Position numbers and translations under genes: made by a program. Shown here piece after piece: positions 37,597 through 46,297 of a stretch of 55,331 nt of DNA (its first letter is position 1; each line of letters starts with the position of its first letter). The DNA is from Nitrospirota bacterium (lineage in GTDB: Bacteria; Nitrospirota; Nitrospiria; Nitrospirales; Nitrospiraceae), in NCBI GenBank assembly GCA_040757595.1, contig JBFLWP010000021.1, forward strand, positions 1 to 55,331, read 5' to 3'. The notes beneath the pieces are model-generated. The model did not search any database and was not told where the DNA came from. It saw only the letters and a list, made by a program, of their open reading frames with translations.

Positions 37597-38546
37597 AGCA
37601 GCCGCGCTCCGATTGCGGCTCCGGCCGCCAGGACCGCCACGGTCGCCAAGAGCGTCAGGGCCAAGCGGACGTGGGCCGCCGTCAGGATCGGTCCGGGATC
37701 GCCGAGCACCGGCCGCTCGACCGGCACTCCGTCATAGAGGTTGAGCCCTCCGAGCTGCACTCCCAGTGCTCCGGCCATGGCTGCCTCCGGACGTCCGCTG
37801 TTGGGACTCGGGTGCTTCGCCCCGTCGCGCCTGAGCACGTGCCAGGCGCGACGGACGACGCGTAGATCGCGGAAGACCAGCCCCGCCGCCAGCACGAGGA
37901 GCCCCCCCGTCGCTCGCGCGGGCATCCAATTGGCCAGATCATCGAGCTGGGCCGAAGCCCAGCCGAAATCCCTGTGCCGCTCGTCCAGATGGCCGACCAT
38001 GGAATCCAACGTGCTGATCGCCTTGTAGGCCAGGGCCAGGGGAGCGCCGCCGATCGCCAAGTAGAGGAGCGGGGCCACGACTCCGTCCGAGGCGCTCTCA
38101 GCCACGGTCTCCACGGTCGCCCTCACCACCTCCGGCTCGGGCAGGGCCTGCGTGTCCCGCCCCACGATCAAGGCTACCGCGGCCCTGGCTTCCGGCAGCG
38201 AGCCACGAACCAACGCCCGCTGAACGGCCAGCCCATGGTCCAGCAGATCCCTGGCCGCCAGCGTGGTCCAGGCGAGAAACAGCTCCATCCCCCGTCCGAG
38301 CAGATCGTGAACCAGACCGGCCAGCTCGATCGCGAGCCAGCCGAGCGCGTACGCGGATGCCGGCAGGCCAACGGCCAGGGCGATCCCCGCCAGTCGCTTG
38401 GCGGCCGGACCTGCACAATGCGGCCGCACCCGCTCGTCGCACCAGGTGATGACGAGGCCCATCAACTTGACCGGATGGGGCAGCCAGCGGGGATCCCCGG
38501 CCACTGCATCCGCGAGACAGGCCAGCGCCAACGTTCCGGCGGTCAC
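37593..38546 (-). CDS. cbiB: adenosylcobinamide-phosphate synthase
   Basis: 317 residues from GTG 38546. Attaches aminopropanol (phosphate) to adenosylcobyric acid at the inner membrane. It starts with GTLALACLADAVAGDPRWLP and HPVKLMGL, then ESASDGVVAPLLYLAIGGAP, AYKAISTLDSMVGH, DLANWMPARATGG and KHPSPNSGRPEAAMAGALGV, all CbiB landmarks. Several TM segments are visible. The long open frame to 39167 is an artefact on the antisense of cobS; GTGA overlap with the cobS stop fixes the start. Confidence 0.93.
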   Translation of the reverse strand: MTAGTLALACLADAVAGDPRWLPHPVKLMGLVITWCDERVRPHCAGPAAKRLAGIALAVGLPASAYALGWLAIELAGLVHDLLGRGMELFLAWTTLAARDLLDHGLAVQRALVRGSLPEARAAVALIVGRDTQALPEPEVVRATVETVAESASDGVVAPLLYLAIGGAPLALAYKAISTLDSMVGHLDERHRDFGWASAQLDDLANWMPARATGGLLVLAAGLVFRDLRVVRRAWHVLRRDGAKHPSPNSGRPEAAMAGALGVQLGGLNLYDGVPVERPVLGDPGPILTAAHVRLALTLLATVAVLAAGAAIGARLL

Positions 38547-39421
38547 GGCAGTCCCAGCAGAACGGGCACGGCCAGGAGCCACAGGGTCTCGACGATCTCG
38601 TTGGTCGCCCCCAGCACGTCGCCGGTCGTCCCGCCCAGCAATCGCCGCGACCAGAGGCTCATCGCCCGAGCGACCCCGCCCGCGAGCAGAAGGCTCAGAA
38701 CGGCGCCGGTCGGCCCGAGCAGCCAGAGCAGGACCGCGCCCAACAGGCCCGTGGCCGCCAACAGGTGCCGCACGGTGAGGTGCCCCAGGAAGGGACCGGC
38801 CAGCCCTCCCTCGGCCCGTGCGTAACGGACGCCGTAGGCGCCCAGCACCATGCTCCAACGGCCGACGGCCGGCAGACAGATCAGCAGGTCGAACCGGTGC
38901 GTTTCCGACAGCACCGTCAGCCCCGCATAGCGGAGCCCCAGGTCCAGAATCAGGCCGGTCGCGCCGATCGCCCCGATGCGCCCGTCGCGCATGACGGCGA
39001 GCCGCTCTGCCGGCGTCCGTCCGCCCGCCAGCCCGTCCAGAAAATCGGCCAGGCCGTCCTGGTGCAGGCCGCGTGTCACCGCAACCAGCAGCAGGAGCAG
39101 CAACCCGTTCACCACGACCGGCGACAGGACCCGTGTCAGCAGGAGATCGCTCACGGCGAGGGCCCATCCCAGGATCAGGCCGACGGCTGGATACCAGAGC
39201 ATGGAGCGGGCCAGCTCCTCCGGGCGCGGATCGTGGGCGAGGCGGCTGAGAGGAACGGCGGTGAGGAAGTGCCAGGCCAGAAGAAAAGGACGTGAGACGC
39301 CAGACGTGAGACGTGAGACGTGAGACGTGAGATGACCAGAGGACGAAGAAGGCGCGCTTGCCGGTTGCGCTGTTTCCGCGCCGGTCGTTTCACCTTTCAC
39401 GTCTGACCTTTCACGGTTCAC
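38543..39421 (-). CDS. cobS: cobalamin synthase (adenosylcobinamide-GDP ribazoletransferase)
   Basis: 292 residues. Joins GDP-cobinamide to alpha-ribazole in the inner membrane. Family core: FLLAWHFLTAVPL, TRGLHQDGLADFLDGLAGG (metal-binding DGLAD), MRDGRIGAIGATGLIL and GTTGDVLGATNEIVETLWLLA; about six TM segments. The first 45 residues (up to GVSRP) have no counterpart in CobS and are translated from a heptad hairpin; even the GTG start at 39421 lies in a repeat arm. The cobT stop codon overlaps this start by 11 bases. Confidence 0.92.
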   Translation of the reverse strand: MNRERSDVKGETTGAETAQPASAPSSSSGHLTSHVSRLTSGVSRPFLLAWHFLTAVPLSRLAHDPRPEELARSMLWYPAVGLILGWALAVSDLLLTRVLSPVVVNGLLLLLLVAVTRGLHQDGLADFLDGLAGGRTPAERLAVMRDGRIGAIGATGLILDLGLRYAGLTVLSETHRFDLLICLPAVGRWSMVLGAYGVRYARAEGGLAGPFLGHLTVRHLLAATGLLGAVLLWLLGPTGAVLSLLLAGGVARAMSLWSRRLLGGTTGDVLGATNEIVETLWLLAVPVLLGLP

Positions 39422-39423
39422 GC
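39289..39423. repeat. heptad repeat hairpin, GTGAGAC type, cobT/cobS junction
   Basis: Left arm 39289-39335 is repeated GACGTGA/GTGAGAC units; right arm 39386-39423 has TTTCACC, TTTCACG, TCTGACC, TTTCACG, GTTCACG. Arms are inverted with a 50-base loop. On the coding strand this encodes the CobS N-terminus and contains the cobT stop and the cobS GTG start. Confidence 0.85.
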
Positions 39424-40466
39424 TCGGAGACGCCGGCCTCGTCGAACGTCGCCATCTGGGTCAGGATCTTGAGGCTGGCCTGGATCAGGCCGATGCCCAG
39501 ACAGGCCCCGGTCCCCTCCCCGAGCCGCAGATCCAGATCGAGCAGCGGCGTGAGCCCGAGCCGGCGCAAGGCGGCGAGGTGGCCCAACTCCGCGGACCGG
39601 TGGGAGGCGATCATGTAGTCCCGGCAATGGGGCTGGAGGCCGGCCGCGATCAGGGCCGCCGCGCCGGCGATGAACCCGTCCAGGACGACCGGAATCCGCC
39701 TAGCGGCCGAACCGAGGATCAATCCGGCCAGCCCCGCGATTTCCAGCCCGCCCACCTTGCTCAGCACGTCCAACGGATCCGTTGGATCGGGCCGATGCCG
39801 CTCCAGGGCCTGGCGGATCACCGAGACCTTCCTCGCATAGCCCGCTTCATCCACACCCGTGCCCCGCCCGGTCACCGATTCCACCGGCTCCCCGGTCATG
39901 ACCGCCGTGATCGCCGCACTCGGCGTCGTGTTCCCGATCCCCATGTCGCCGGTGCCGACGAGTCCGATCCCCTCCTGCGCCGCTCCCTGCGCCAGCTCGA
40001 TTCCGACCGAAAGGGCCAGCTCCGCCTCGGCACGGCTCATCGCCGGCTCCCGGAGCAGATTCCTGGTCCCCTTCGCCACCTTCTTCGAAATCATTCCGGG
40101 CAGGGACCCGAAATCGTGGGCCACGCCGATGTCCACCACCTTCACATCCGCCCCCACGTGGCGGGCCAGCACGTTGACGGCCGCGCCGCCGTTCAAAAAA
40201 TTCAGCACCATCTGGGCCGTGACCGCACTGGGATAGGCGCTGACCCCCTCGCCCGCCACTCCATGGTCGGCCGCAAAGGTGAAGATCGCGGCCTTGGGGA
40301 CCTTGGGCCGCTCCTCCCTGGTCATGGCGACATAGCGGGCCGCCAGTTCCTCCAGCCGCCCCAGGCTCCCCACCGGCTTGGTGAGCCGATCCAGCCTGGC
40401 CCTGGCCCGCTCGAGCCAGGCCGGGTCAATCGGGATGACGGCGTTGACGGATTCTTGAATCGTCAC
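39411..40466 (-). CDS. cobT: nicotinate-nucleotide:dimethylbenzimidazole phosphoribosyltransferase
   Basis: 351 residues from GTG 40466, two bases after the cobU stop. Makes alpha-ribazole phosphate, activating the lower base. Landmarks: TKPVGSLGRLEELA, AIFTFAADHGVAGEGVSAYP, FLNGGAAVNVLARH, GTGDMGIGNTTPSAAI and the catalytic Glu in LRLGEGTGACLGIGL. The last residues (SEREP) and the stop lie in a heptad arm. A frame extending to 40817 is spurious (antisense of cobU). It fits BluB in the same operon, which supplies dimethylbenzimidazole. Confidence 0.95.
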   Translation of the reverse strand: MTIQESVNAVIPIDPAWLERARARLDRLTKPVGSLGRLEELAARYVAMTREERPKVPKAAIFTFAADHGVAGEGVSAYPSAVTAQMVLNFLNGGAAVNVLARHVGADVKVVDIGVAHDFGSLPGMISKKVAKGTRNLLREPAMSRAEAELALSVGIELAQGAAQEGIGLVGTGDMGIGNTTPSAAITAVMTGEPVESVTGRGTGVDEAGYARKVSVIRQALERHRPDPTDPLDVLSKVGGLEIAGLAGLILGSAARRIPVVLDGFIAGAAALIAAGLQPHCRDYMIASHRSAELGHLAALRRLGLTPLLDLDLRLGEGTGACLGIGLIQASLKILTQMATFDEAGVSEREP

Positions 40467-40468
40467 GG

Positions 40469-41059
40469 CTACTTGATCCGGAGCGGAATCCCGCTCAGCA
40501 CGACGTGGACTTCGTCCGCCTCCCGGGCAACCAGTTGATTGACCTGCCCGGCAAGATCTCGAAACCGGCGGGTTTCCGCTTCCAGCGGGACCAGCCCCAG
40601 ACCGAGCTCGTTGCTGACCAGCAGAACCCTCGCAGAGGCGCCGCGGATCGCCGCCAGTAACGCCGCGACCAGCGACGGGACCTGCTTCTCGGACACGCCC
40701 CGCTCCCGCAGATTGCTCAGCCAGAGGGTGAGACAGTCCAGCACGACGACCCGGTAGTCGGCTCCGTGCTTCTCGAACCAACTGGCCAGGTCCACCGGGA
40801 CCTCGGACGTCTCCCATTCAGGTCCACGCGACCGTCGGTGCCGGCTGATCCGTTCCGCCATTTCCCCGTCCAACGGCTGGCCCGTCGCGACGAAGGCCTT
40901 CCTCCCCTTGCCCCCCGCGAGCGCCAGCGCCACGCTGCTCTTCCCGGAGGAAGCGCCGCCGACCACGAAGATGAGACGCCCCCTCGAATTGCGACGCGTG
41001 ACGCGTGACGCGTGACGCGTGAAGAAAGTCTTTATCTTTTGTCGCTTCCTACCCATCAC
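40469..41059 (-). CDS. cobU: bifunctional adenosylcobinamide kinase / guanylyltransferase
   Basis: 196 residues. Phosphorylates adenosylcobinamide and then transfers GMP to it. The P-loop GGASSGKSSVALALA and the guanylylated His in ISRHRRSRGPEWETSEVP are present, as are VVLDCLTLWLSNL and LVSNELGLGLVPLEAETRRF. The first 32 residues before LIFVVGG have no family counterpart and are encoded by a heptad hairpin (the run TRHASRVTRR is translated repeat). The start, GTG 41059 or ATG 41056, overlaps the cobQ stop TGA inside the repeat. Confidence 0.93.
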   Translation of the reverse strand: MMGRKRQKIKTFFTRHASRVTRRNSRGRLIFVVGGASSGKSSVALALAGGKGRKAFVATGQPLDGEMAERISRHRRSRGPEWETSEVPVDLASWFEKHGADYRVVVLDCLTLWLSNLRERGVSEKQVPSLVAALLAAIRGASARVLLVSNELGLGLVPLEAETRRFRDLAGQVNQLVAREADEVHVVLSGIPLRIK

Positions 41060-41073
41060 CTGTCACGTGTCAC
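40991..41073. repeat. heptad repeat hairpin, GTGACGC type, cobQ/cobU junction
   Basis: Left arm 40991-41023 holds four GTGACGC-type units; right arm 41051-41073 holds CCATCAC, CTGTCAC, GTGTCAC. The loop is 27 bases. It supplies the cobQ stop, the cobU start and about 25 N-terminal residues of CobU. Confidence 0.85.
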
Positions 41074-42591
41074 GGCTTCCACGCCCCGCTCGACGATGGC
41101 TTCGACCGCCGCAAGACCCACGTGCTCGGCCACAAAATCGGCCAGCCGGTCGATCGCCTGGTCGGTTGACAGCCCGGGCGAAGGATCGAGCGGAGCCCAG
41201 CCGCGCGCCGCCCGCAGCCGGTTGAGAAACGTGCGCCTGAAGGACGGCTGGTCGAACAGCCCGTGGACATAGGTCCCGATGACCCGCCCGTCGGGGGACA
41301 CGGCCCCCTCGGCCCATCTCCGCGACCGGTCCGGCTTCTGAAGGTCCAGGAAGGGGGTCACGCCAGGTCCGACCTTCGTCCGGCCCATGTGGATCTGGTA
41401 GCCCTCGACGGGACAGCCGCTCTCCCGATGGACGCCGACGACCTGGATCAGCACCTTTTTTCGGGCGAAACCGGTCATCACGTCCAGCAGCCCCAACCCC
41501 GTCACCTCCCGCTCACGCGATTCGACCCTGTGCGGGTCCCGAATCTTCATGCCCAAAAGCTGGTACCCGCCGCAGAGCCCGAGGACGGTGCCGCCCTCGG
41601 CCAGCACCCGCCTGGCGACCAGATCCAGCCCGCGCGCCTTGACGAACGCCACCGCTTCGGCGGTGGACTTGGTTCCGGGGAAGATCAGAGCGTCGAGCCT
41701 CTGTCCCGTCTCGCCCTTCAGCCGGACCAGCACCACGTCCGGCTCCTGGGCCAGGGCTTCGAAGTCGGTGAAGTTGGAGATGGCCGGTACGTCCGCCACG
41801 CCGATCGCCAAGAGGTCGTGACGGGTGACGCGTGACGGGTGACGCATGAGACATGTGCTCTGATCCTCCCAGCCCAGCGAATCCTCCTGGGGGACTTGAA
41901 GGTCTCCCCAATGGGGGATCACGCCGAGGCAGGGGACGCCGATCCGCTTCTCAACTTCCCTGATGCCGGGAGCGAGCAGGTCTCTGCTTCCGCGAAACTT
42001 GTTGACGAGAAAGCCCTTGACCAGACGCCGCTCCTCCGGCTCCAGCAGCTCCATGGTCCCGACCAGAGCCGCGAGAACGCCCCCGCGATCAATGTCCCCG
42101 ACCAGGATCACCGGCGCCCGTGCCTCCCGTGCCATCCGCATGTTCACGATGTCGTGCTCGCGCAGGTTGATCTCGGCCGGACTCCCGGCCCCTTCCAGCA
42201 CCACCAGATCGAACTCGGCCGCGAGACGGGCGAAGGCCTCGCGGACGGACTGGAACCAGTCCCGCTTGACGCGTCCGAAGTCCTCGGCCGTCAGGGCTCC
42301 GGCCACCGCTCCGTTCACGACCAGCTGCGCCCGCAGCCCTCCCTCAGGCTTGATCAGCACCGGGTTGAACTCCGTCCGTGGGGCCAGCCGGCAGGCCGCG
42401 GCCTGGACCGCCTGGGCACGACCGATCTCCCTCCCGTCCGGCGTGACGAACGAGTTGTTCGACATGTTCTGCGCCTTGAAAGGCGCCACCCGGAGCCCGC
42501 GGCGGAGAAACAGGCGGCAGAGCGCCGTCACGAGCACCGACTTGCCCACGTGGGAGCCGGTACCTTGAATCATGAGCGTCTTGGCAGCCAT
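41056..42591 (-). CDS. cobQ: cobyric acid synthase
   Basis: 511 residues from ATG 42591. Glutamine-dependent amidation of four side chains of adenosylcobyrinic diamide (also called CbiP). The N-terminal dethiobiotin-synthetase-like ATPase has KTLMIQGTGSHVGKSVLVTA; FKAQNMSNNSFVT, LEGAGSPAEINL and LVGDIDRGGVLAALVGT follow. The C-terminal class I-type triad domain has VLGLCGGYQLLG and ends with GTYVHGLFD. I reject the start at 42684 because its 31 extra residues are repeat-encoded. Around 41818-41852 a heptad arm is translated in frame as MRHPSRVTRHD. The last residues VTRDR and the stop also come from repeat. Confidence 0.94.
   Translation of the reverse strand: MAAKTLMIQGTGSHVGKSVLVTALCRLFLRRGLRVAPFKAQNMSNNSFVTPDGREIGRAQAVQAAACRLAPRTEFNPVLIKPEGGLRAQLVVNGAVAGALTAEDFGRVKRDWFQSVREAFARLAAEFDLVVLEGAGSPAEINLREHDIVNMRMAREARAPVILVGDIDRGGVLAALVGTMELLEPEERRLVKGFLVNKFRGSRDLLAPGIREVEKRIGVPCLGVIPHWGDLQVPQEDSLGWEDQSTCLMRHPSRVTRHDLLAIGVADVPAISNFTDFEALAQEPDVVLVRLKGETGQRLDALIFPGTKSTAEAVAFVKARGLDLVARRVLAEGGTVLGLCGGYQLLGMKIRDPHRVESREREVTGLGLLDVMTGFARKKVLIQVVGVHRESGCPVEGYQIHMGRTKVGPGVTPFLDLQKPDRSRRWAEGAVSPDGRVIGTYVHGLFDQPSFRRTFLNRLRAARGWAPLDPSPGLSTDQAIDRLADFVAEHVGLAAVEAIVERGVEAVTRDR
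41818..41852. repeat. solo heptad arm inside cobQ
   Basis: GTGACGG, GTGACGC, GTGACGG, GTGACGC on the plus strand, then ATGAGAC. There is no opposite arm within 100 bases. On the coding strand it is read in the CAC-rich direction, which is free of stop codons in every frame, between the ATPase domain and the amidotransferase domain of CobQ. Confidence 0.8.
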
Positions 42592-42597
42592 AGAGCC

Positions 42598-42700
42598 AGT
42601 GATGGGTGATGAGTGATCGGTGATCGGCTCGGAGATTGATGAGTGAGCACGTGCGTGAGCATTCCGCCTCTCATCACCCATCACAGATCACCCATCACTT
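42598..42700. repeat. heptad repeat hairpin, GTGATGG type, pduO/cobQ junction
   Basis: Left arm 42598-42627: GTGATGG, GTGATGA, GTGATCG, GTGATCG. Right arm 42669-42700: TCATCAC, CCATCAC, AGATCAC, CCATCAC. A loop of about 41 bases. It contains the stop codon of the adenosyltransferase gene and ends 7 bases before the cobQ ATG. Confidence 0.87.
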
Positions 42701-43282
42701 TTTGACGTTCCGTTCCCAGAGAAACTCCGGCTCCCCGTTCATGCTGCCGACCCAGCGGGCCAGGACGAACAGGGCATCGCTGAGCCGGTTGAGAAACTTG
42801 AGGATGAGGGGGTTCACCGTCTCCTCCCGGGCCAGCCGGACGCAGACCCGCTCCGCGCGGCGACAGACCGTCCGGGCCTGATGGAGCAGGCCCGGCACCT
42901 TGCCGCCGCCCGGCAGGATGAACTCTTTGAGCGGAGCCAGGTCCTTCTGACACTCGTCAATCAGCTTTTCGAGGGCCGTCACGTCCGCCGCGGTCACCTG
43001 AGGCATGTTCTTGAAGCCCTGCCCCGGCGCCGTCGCCAGGATGCCGCCCGCGTCGAACAGTTTGTTCTGGACCCACCGGAGCTGTCCTTCCAGCCGGTCC
43101 CTGGCCGGAGAGTCGGCCAGGTCGGCGTTGAACACCCGCACGAGCCCGACCGAGGCGTTCAGCTCATCCACCGTGCCATAGGCCTCCACGCGCAGACTGT
43201 CTTTCCAGACCTGCTGGCCGCCGGCCAGCCGCGTCTTTCCCGCGTCGCCCGTCCGCGTATAGACTTTGGTGATGCGCATCAT
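42695..43282 (-). CDS. ATP:cob(I)alamin adenosyltransferase, PduO type
   Basis: 195 residues. Adds the adenosyl group to cob(I)alamin. The N-terminal Thr/Arg ATP site is KVYTRTGDAGKTRLAGG; VEAYGTVDELNASVG, LPGGGKVPGLLHQARTVCRRAE and VNPLILKFLNRLSDALFVLAR are the standard PduO landmarks, with NPLILKFLNRLSD holding the active helix. This is a second, unrelated adenosyltransferase in the operon beside CobO. Translation stops at TGA supplied by a heptad unit after WERNVKK. Confidence 0.93.
   Translation of the reverse strand: MMRITKVYTRTGDAGKTRLAGGQQVWKDSLRVEAYGTVDELNASVGLVRVFNADLADSPARDRLEGQLRWVQNKLFDAGGILATAPGQGFKNMPQVTAADVTALEKLIDECQKDLAPLKEFILPGGGKVPGLLHQARTVCRRAERVCVRLAREETVNPLILKFLNRLSDALFVLARWVGSMNGEPEFLWERNVKK

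Positions 43283-44872: not shown

Positions 44873-44880
<8 letters not shown>
44281..44880 (-). CDS. cobO: cob(I)yrinic acid a,c-diamide adenosyltransferase, CobO/CobA type
   Basis: 199 residues from ATG 44880. Corrinoid adenosyltransferase of the CobA/CobO/BtuR family: KGLLIVYTGAGKGKTTAALG (P-loop), VAIVQFIKG, FLRMGEGYTWETQDRERD, YAMVVLDEFNIALHHGYV and HVVITGRSA. Its start overlaps the cobB stop by 8 bases. Together with the PduO-type enzyme this gives two routes to adenosyl-corrinoids. The open frame continuing to 45042 is antisense to cobB and rejected. Confidence 0.95.

Positions 44881-46297
<1,417 letters not shown>

Follow-up and report, generated by a model that had tools for sequence, protein, structure and literature searches.

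Palindromic heptad repeats at operon junctions of a Nitrospirota genome: a probable source of stop codons and, occasionally, of starts

Can a short repeat at the junction of two operon genes determine where one protein ends and the next begins? The question is raised by a 55,331-nt contig from a Nitrospirota bacterium of the family Nitrospiraceae (GenBank JBFLWP010000021.1; this whole stretch is referred to here as the window), in which arrays of GTGA-containing heptads lie across the cobT/cobS and cobQ/cobU junctions. A first-pass annotation proposed that such an array is a ready-made terminate-and-restart device. Gene models and starts used here are those of a home-made codon-score gene caller. 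Elements were surveyed in 1.66 Mb of sequence in stretches, about half of the genome, and the history of the two junctions was read from 30 family loci with cobT together with named loci of GTDB genomes (the closest mostly labelled Nitrospirae or Nitrospira), among which the window is locus L137. The genomes compared are mostly metagenome assemblies.

Stops and starts at cobT/cobS and cobQ/cobU

Read on the minus strand, both arrays are palindromic elements that consist of a 5' arm of GTGANNN heptads, a loop of ~40 nt, and a 3' arm of NNNTCAC heptads (Table 1). Hairpins of -55.4 kcal/mol and -38.7 kcal/mol are predicted for the cobT/cobS and cobQ/cobU elements, respectively. Heptad arrays at the two junctions are far beyond chance; a 25-base degenerate GTGA-heptad pattern gives 235 matches in the genome (123 + 112), against 0 + 1 for a reversed control. 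The 5' arm (GTGANNN)n, on either strand, presents TGA in all three frames within three heptads (21 nt) and, with its period of seven, GTG in all three frames as well, in line with the first-pass remark that a period of seven passes GTGATGG through all three frames. The 3' arm (NNNTCAC)n has no stop in any of the three frames. Direct reading of the minus strand also bears out that the cobT stop and two candidate cobS GTG codons lie within heptads and that the cobQ TGA and the cobU GTG or ATG come from GTGATGG.

Table 1. Features of the cobT/cobS and cobQ/cobU junctions and of a neighboring element (window coordinates)
Feature	Position	Strand	Description	Basis
5' (GTGA) arm, cobT/cobS element	39387..39421	-	GTGAACC GTGAAAG GTCAGAC GTGAAAG GTGAAAC (five heptads)	sequence
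3' (TCAC) arm, cobT/cobS element	39289..39330	-	TCACGTC x4, TGGCGTC, TCACGTC	sequence
cobT stop	39411..39413	-	TGA in heptad 2; position conserved in array-free orthologs	sequence and orthologs
Candidate cobS start 1	39419..39421	-	GTG of heptad 1; 11-nt overlap with cobT end	
Candidate cobS start 2	39398..39400	-	GTG of heptad 4; 10 nt past cobT stop; homologous to L142 ATG	
cobS	38543..39421	-	reading frame from first array GTG	tblastn of relatives
cobT	39411..40466	-		
5' (GTGA) arm, cobQ/cobU element	41053..41073	-	GTGACAC GTGACAG GTGATGG	sequence
3' (TCAC) arm, cobQ/cobU element	40995..41022	-	TCACGCG x4	sequence
cobQ stop	41056..41058	-	TGA in heptad 3; derived, older stop right after GV lost	sequence and orthologs
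Candidate cobU start	41057..41059	-	GTG in heptad 3; ATG alternative at 41056-41054	sequence
cobU	40469..41059	-	reading frame	
cobQ	41056..42591	-		
Typical family element	42599..42698	-	between gene 42695-43282 and cobQ	sequence

The last heptad of the 3' arm contains the first codon (CGT at 39292) of the conserved CobS core, RPFLLAW. Upstream of it, no in-frame ATG, GTG, or TTG is present except the GTG codons of heptads 1 and 4, and the next in-frame start codon is reached 89 nt beyond the element, within the conserved protein itself. As such, the start of cobS is effectively forced into the array. From the two GTG codons, CobS would carry 43 or 36 residues, respectively, before its core, versus 2 to 8 in array-free orthologs, so that an earlier estimate of ~45 gained residues was roughly right. 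These starts lie at -11 and +10 relative to the cobT stop, within the overlap or ~20-nt spacing of termination-reinitiation pairs. In all 8 array-bearing orthologs, candidate cobS starts fall in the 5' arm or the loop, and the frame is read through the 3' arm into the core; the L142 start (ATGAAAGGTGAAAC) is homologous to the second GTG of the window. The array-encoded CobS tails do not align among orthologs.

While the cobT stop now lies in a heptad, the proposal that the array built it is ruled out by the ortholog comparison, in which the stop (GVSERxx*) stays where it is whether or not an array is present. Array-free relatives couple cobT and cobS by a GTGA or ATGA overlap, and in four of them (L138, L140, L143, and L149) a 4-nt GTGA stop/start overlap falls exactly at the position of heptad 2 in the window. 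The cobT/cobS array is therefore in register with an ancestral GTGA overlap. On the protein tree, array presence at this junction requires 7 changes, of which supported branches force at least 6. A single gain is therefore rejected, although, given the homologous loops of L154, L155, and L159, the pattern could also stem from transfer or repeated loss. In L141 (= L010), a different, AT-rich inverted repeat (gttaagttttcag...caaaacttaaaattg) takes the place of the heptad array.

The cobQ stop, judged from its orthologs, is derived: the old stop was lost and the array caught the frame. The stop follows directly after GV or GL in L138, L142, L143, L144, L145, and L152, and in two of these (L142 and L145) the old stop is intact and the array is present. 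In the window, L140, and L141, that stop is gone, and cobQ runs on for about six more residues to a heptad TGA. The cobU start GTGATGGG is common to the window, L140, L141, L142, and L145 (the last with a slightly different context). Candidate cobU starts lie at -4 and -1 relative to the cobQ stop, again within the overlap or ~20-nt spacing of termination-reinitiation pairs, and past them the sole start codon in the vicinity of the array is a GTG within the P-loop strand (LIF-V-VGGASSGKS).

From the array start, CobU would have ~27 residues before its core. Array-free CobU orthologs already have a basic tail of 8 to 22 residues, so the net gain from the array is below the 32 residues first assigned to it, a figure that was overstated. 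The tail is probably translated, given that there is no good alternative start and that its length is 26 to 27 residues in five genomes, yet it appears free to drift. In pairwise comparisons, pN is about equal to pS in the tail, versus a pN/pS of ~0.2 to 0.35 in the body, and selection on the tail sequence was not seen.

Two further observations concern cobQ and its junction. Array alleles at cobQ/cobU group the window with L141 and L140 with L142, though L140 and L141 are sisters on the protein tree; this conflict suggests recombination or transfer of the junction. Within cobQ itself, an in-frame TCAC-sense arm (window positions 41818-41849) encodes MRHPSRVTRHD; this stretch exceeds its counterpart in three relatives by ~6 residues and does not otherwise resemble it.

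A family of elements behind stop codons

In the 1.66-Mb sample, 139 elements were found, both arms being present in 67. Complete elements have a median length of 93 nt, and their arms follow the order GTGA to TCAC in 67 of 67 pairs, with no reversed pair. The triplets between GTGA cores match within an element at a rate of 0.63, compared with 0.485 after shuffling (standard deviation, 0.025; none of 300 shuffles was as high), which argues that the two arms arise together or are maintained together. Comparable arrays occur in most scanned genera of the family. The pattern recurs in a second family genome (800 kb), with 33 elements, 13 of 23 stops in the arm, 3 TCAC-sense versus 0 GTGA-sense arms inside genes, and no reversed order. 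Heptad arms number 19 in the 55 kb of the window and 187 in the other 1.6 Mb of the sample, about a threefold difference in density.

Elements occupy 99 codirectional, 21 convergent, and 1 divergent gap; divergent gaps make up 21% of intergenic bases yet hold this single element (p = 1.5e-11). Subtracting element length from the spacer leaves -12 to 20 nt at 37 of 53 complete codirectional elements, compared with 328 of 1,122 other junctions (p = 5e-9), so that the elements occupy junctions that are otherwise tight. Inside genes, 15 TCAC-sense arms and 1 GTGA-sense arm were found in addition to 2 pairs, an excess that is expected if the GTGA strand truncates proteins. One complete two-armed element (45542-45601) lies inside a called frame of the window (44873-46297, minus strand), apparently with no in-frame stop left.

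Among 115 gene ends near a 5' arm, 64 are within the arm and most others lie 0 to 11 nt before it, with a peak at 4 to 6 nt. The stop codon is a heptad TGA at 59 of these 115 ends, supplied by units 1, 2, and 3 in 27, 17, and 15 cases. Near-equal use of the units is as expected if the upstream frame is random relative to the array (i.e., passive frame sampling). The supply of stops by the elements thus reads, from sequence, as general and passive. In addition, G precedes TGA in 25 of the 27 unit-1 stops, compared with 29% of other TGA stops; together with the in-register GTGA overlap at cobT/cobS, this bias raises the possibility that GTGA overlaps are targets of the elements or the seeds from which they grow. 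If so, their link to start/stop overlaps would be less accidental than the explanation favored below states.

Starts follow another rule. At 43 of 53 complete codirectional elements, a start is present within 25 nt beyond the 3' arm, and ATG accounts for 38 of the 45 called starts that lie 0 to 20 nt past the arm, typically at a distance of ~10 nt. Within the operon that holds the two cob junctions, the element between cobQ and the gene preceding it is typical, in that the upstream stop is the TGA of heptad 1 and the cobQ ATG lies 7 nt past the last TCAC. Traced upstream from such starts, the gene's own frame reaches the 5' arm without a stop in 15 of 39 cases, and the other two frames do so in 12 and 14; the gene frame is thus no more open than the others and gives no sign that array starts are maintained. 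Start positions and frame test together argue against the arrays as a general restart device. Forced array starts at complete elements are few, namely, cobS, cobU, the genes at C3:173699 and C4:8506, and probably the gene at C8:89182. On the best reading, cobS and cobU are exceptions among junctions with elements, and restart is occasional and forced.

Of the device first proposed, then, the terminating half has held up in both genomes, and at cobS and cobU a start within the array is effectively forced. Restarting as a general property is not supported, given where most starts lie, the frame test, the unconstrained CobU tail, and a cobT stop older than its array.

How the junctions may have arisen

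We consider it probable that these are REP-like heptad repeats at tight operon junctions, whose passive frame logic gives a general supply of stops and an occasional, forced restart. Palindromic heptad repeats would settle, genome-wide, a few bases behind stop codons, mainly at tight junctions within operons. An upstream gene whose own stop was lost or overrun would end on the heptad TGA of whichever unit is in frame, while the next gene would normally keep its start just past the 3' arm. Where an element came to lie between a start codon and a conserved body, as may have happened at cobT/cobS and cobQ/cobU, where the junctions are tight or overlapping, the gene would have to start in the 5' arm and be translated through the loop and 3' arm, thereby acquiring an N-terminal tail without visible constraint. 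Restart, on this explanation, looks like a by-product of the landing place of the element. A quite improbable alternative is that the arrays were selected as a device that couples translation across operon junctions via overlapping stop and start codons. In its favor, the GTGA of each heptad is identical to the classical 4-nt stop/start overlap, good starts for cobS and cobU are lacking elsewhere, and in all 8 cobT/cobS orthologs with an array cobS begins there or in the loop; against it, most downstream genes start past the 3' arm, their frames show no preference for remaining open into the array, the three stop units see about equal use, and array-free relatives already couple cobT and cobS by a GTGA or ATGA overlap. 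It is more improbable still that translation of CobS and CobU begins only past the arrays, in the vicinity of FLLAW and LIFVV and perhaps at noncanonical codons, leaving the array residues untranslated. The short N termini of array-free CobS orthologs and the P-loop GTG of cobU in the window, L141, and L145 are in keeping with such starts; against them, there is no ATG, GTG, or TTG between the array and the CobS core in the window, L140 CobU lacks a P-loop start codon too, and a start at the P-loop GTG would remove the first residues of that strand.

A further possibility, which we think rather unlikely, is that the hairpin acts on the mRNA, either by folding out the spacer so that stop and start stand at the feet of the stem and coupling is kept or by insulating the next gene from re-initiation. 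Both the match between arm triplets and the tight residual spacers agree with a role for the stem, although arm matching may stem from the mode of repeat copying. Post-stop hairpins are reported to lower re-initiation (PMC7518266), and Shine-Dalgarno motifs are few in genes after elements (10 of 39, versus 192 of 395 at spacings of 0 to 60 nt; p = 0.007), where median anti-Shine-Dalgarno pairing is -3.1 kcal/mol, compared with -6.0 kcal/mol at 0 to 60 nt and -4.45 kcal/mol at 60 to 150 nt. However, this scarcity follows at least in part from the last TCAC unit, which occupies the Shine-Dalgarno zone, and the difference is not significant against spacings of 60 to 150 nt (132 of 320; p = 0.08). 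The fold-out and insulation versions also predict opposite effects. At most array junctions, the stop-to-start distance is ~90 nt, outside the overlap or ≤~20-nt spacing of termination-reinitiation pairs and beyond the coupling range reported for native pairs (PMC10666635); since reported ranges are far below 90 nt, either the stem folds the spacer out or the genes are translated independently. A broader version of the fold-out idea would have hairpins colonizing tight junctions family-wide because the stem folds the insert out, with restart at an ATG lacking a Shine-Dalgarno motif at the other foot, coupling that survives a ~90-nt insert, and heptad stops and starts as a side effect of the GTGA core. 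We regard this version as unlikely.

Under the REP-like explanation that we prefer, a short repeat can fix both the ends and the beginnings of genes by its reading-frame properties alone. The element provides a backup for every stop, allows old stops to decay, and would occasionally add a tail to the next protein. Automatic start calls are unreliable at element junctions and should be treated with caution. In addition, the precise seating of hairpins between a stop codon and a start with, for the most part, no Shine-Dalgarno motif offers a testable case for structured inserts being tolerated or used in operons.

Relation to known systems

Stop-overlapping heptamers (PMC4679880), REP-supplied stops (PMC3733652), and stop-proximal heptads (PMC4692102) are already known. 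The literature searched, which included few subscription journals, yielded no precedent for the palindromic GTGANNN form, its register with the GTGA overlap, or the stepwise series in which stops are replaced; it likewise contained nothing relevant on heptamer or palindromic repeats in Nitrospira.

In Beggiatoaceae and some cyanobacteria, direct repeats of the heptamer TAACTGA include 13 sets that overlap the stop of the upstream gene, and many lie just upstream of a start (MacGregor 2015, PMC4679880). Like the present elements, they have a period of 7 and place stops in three frames of one strand while leaving the other strand open. They differ in being one fixed heptamer in direct repetition without a hairpin, whereas the elements described here have a variable triplet (GTGANNN), two complementary arms, and GTG starts in the 5' arm. 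Heptamer repeats of the GGGAATC and GGGGA(C/T)T types in Xanthomonas and Nostoc (PMC4692102) also lie near or overlap stops, mostly between same-direction genes, but are of the G-quadruplex type and not palindromic.

REP sequences are 20 to 40 bp long, end in GTAG or CGTC, and are often accompanied by a RAYT gene (PMC3733652; RepRanger, PMC12306157). They often supply the stop codon (TAG) of a flanking open reading frame (PMC3733652), and they often lie within 15 nt of a stop, where they are reported to stall ribosomes (PMC12306157). The heptad elements resemble them in being palindromic, transcribed, and located between codirectional or convergent genes near stops (PMC3733652; PMC12306157), as is seen here from the 99/21/1 distribution of gaps and from stops that lie in the arm or 0 to 11 nt away. 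By contrast, the GTAG/CGTC tag is absent, the elements beginning with GTGANNN and ending with TCAC, and their median length of 93 nt exceeds that of REPs. Y1_Tnp (IS200/RAYT-like) domain matches were observed at C6:9057-9419 and C22:7928-8286, the latter split between two frames; no heptad element lies within 4 kb of the C6 copy. Membership in the REP/RAYT system is thus rejected on tag and length, with no transposase link at the C6 copy.

Termination-reinitiation at 4-nt ATGA or GTGA overlaps (PMC6728339; PMC10666635) has its counterpart in the GTGA overlap of several array-free cobT/cobS pairs and in the GTGA core of each heptad. Finally, the ribosome termination structure (RTS) likewise places a stable hairpin directly after a stop codon; RTSs are reported to be depleted inside operons (PMC7518266), whereas the heptad elements are commonest there.
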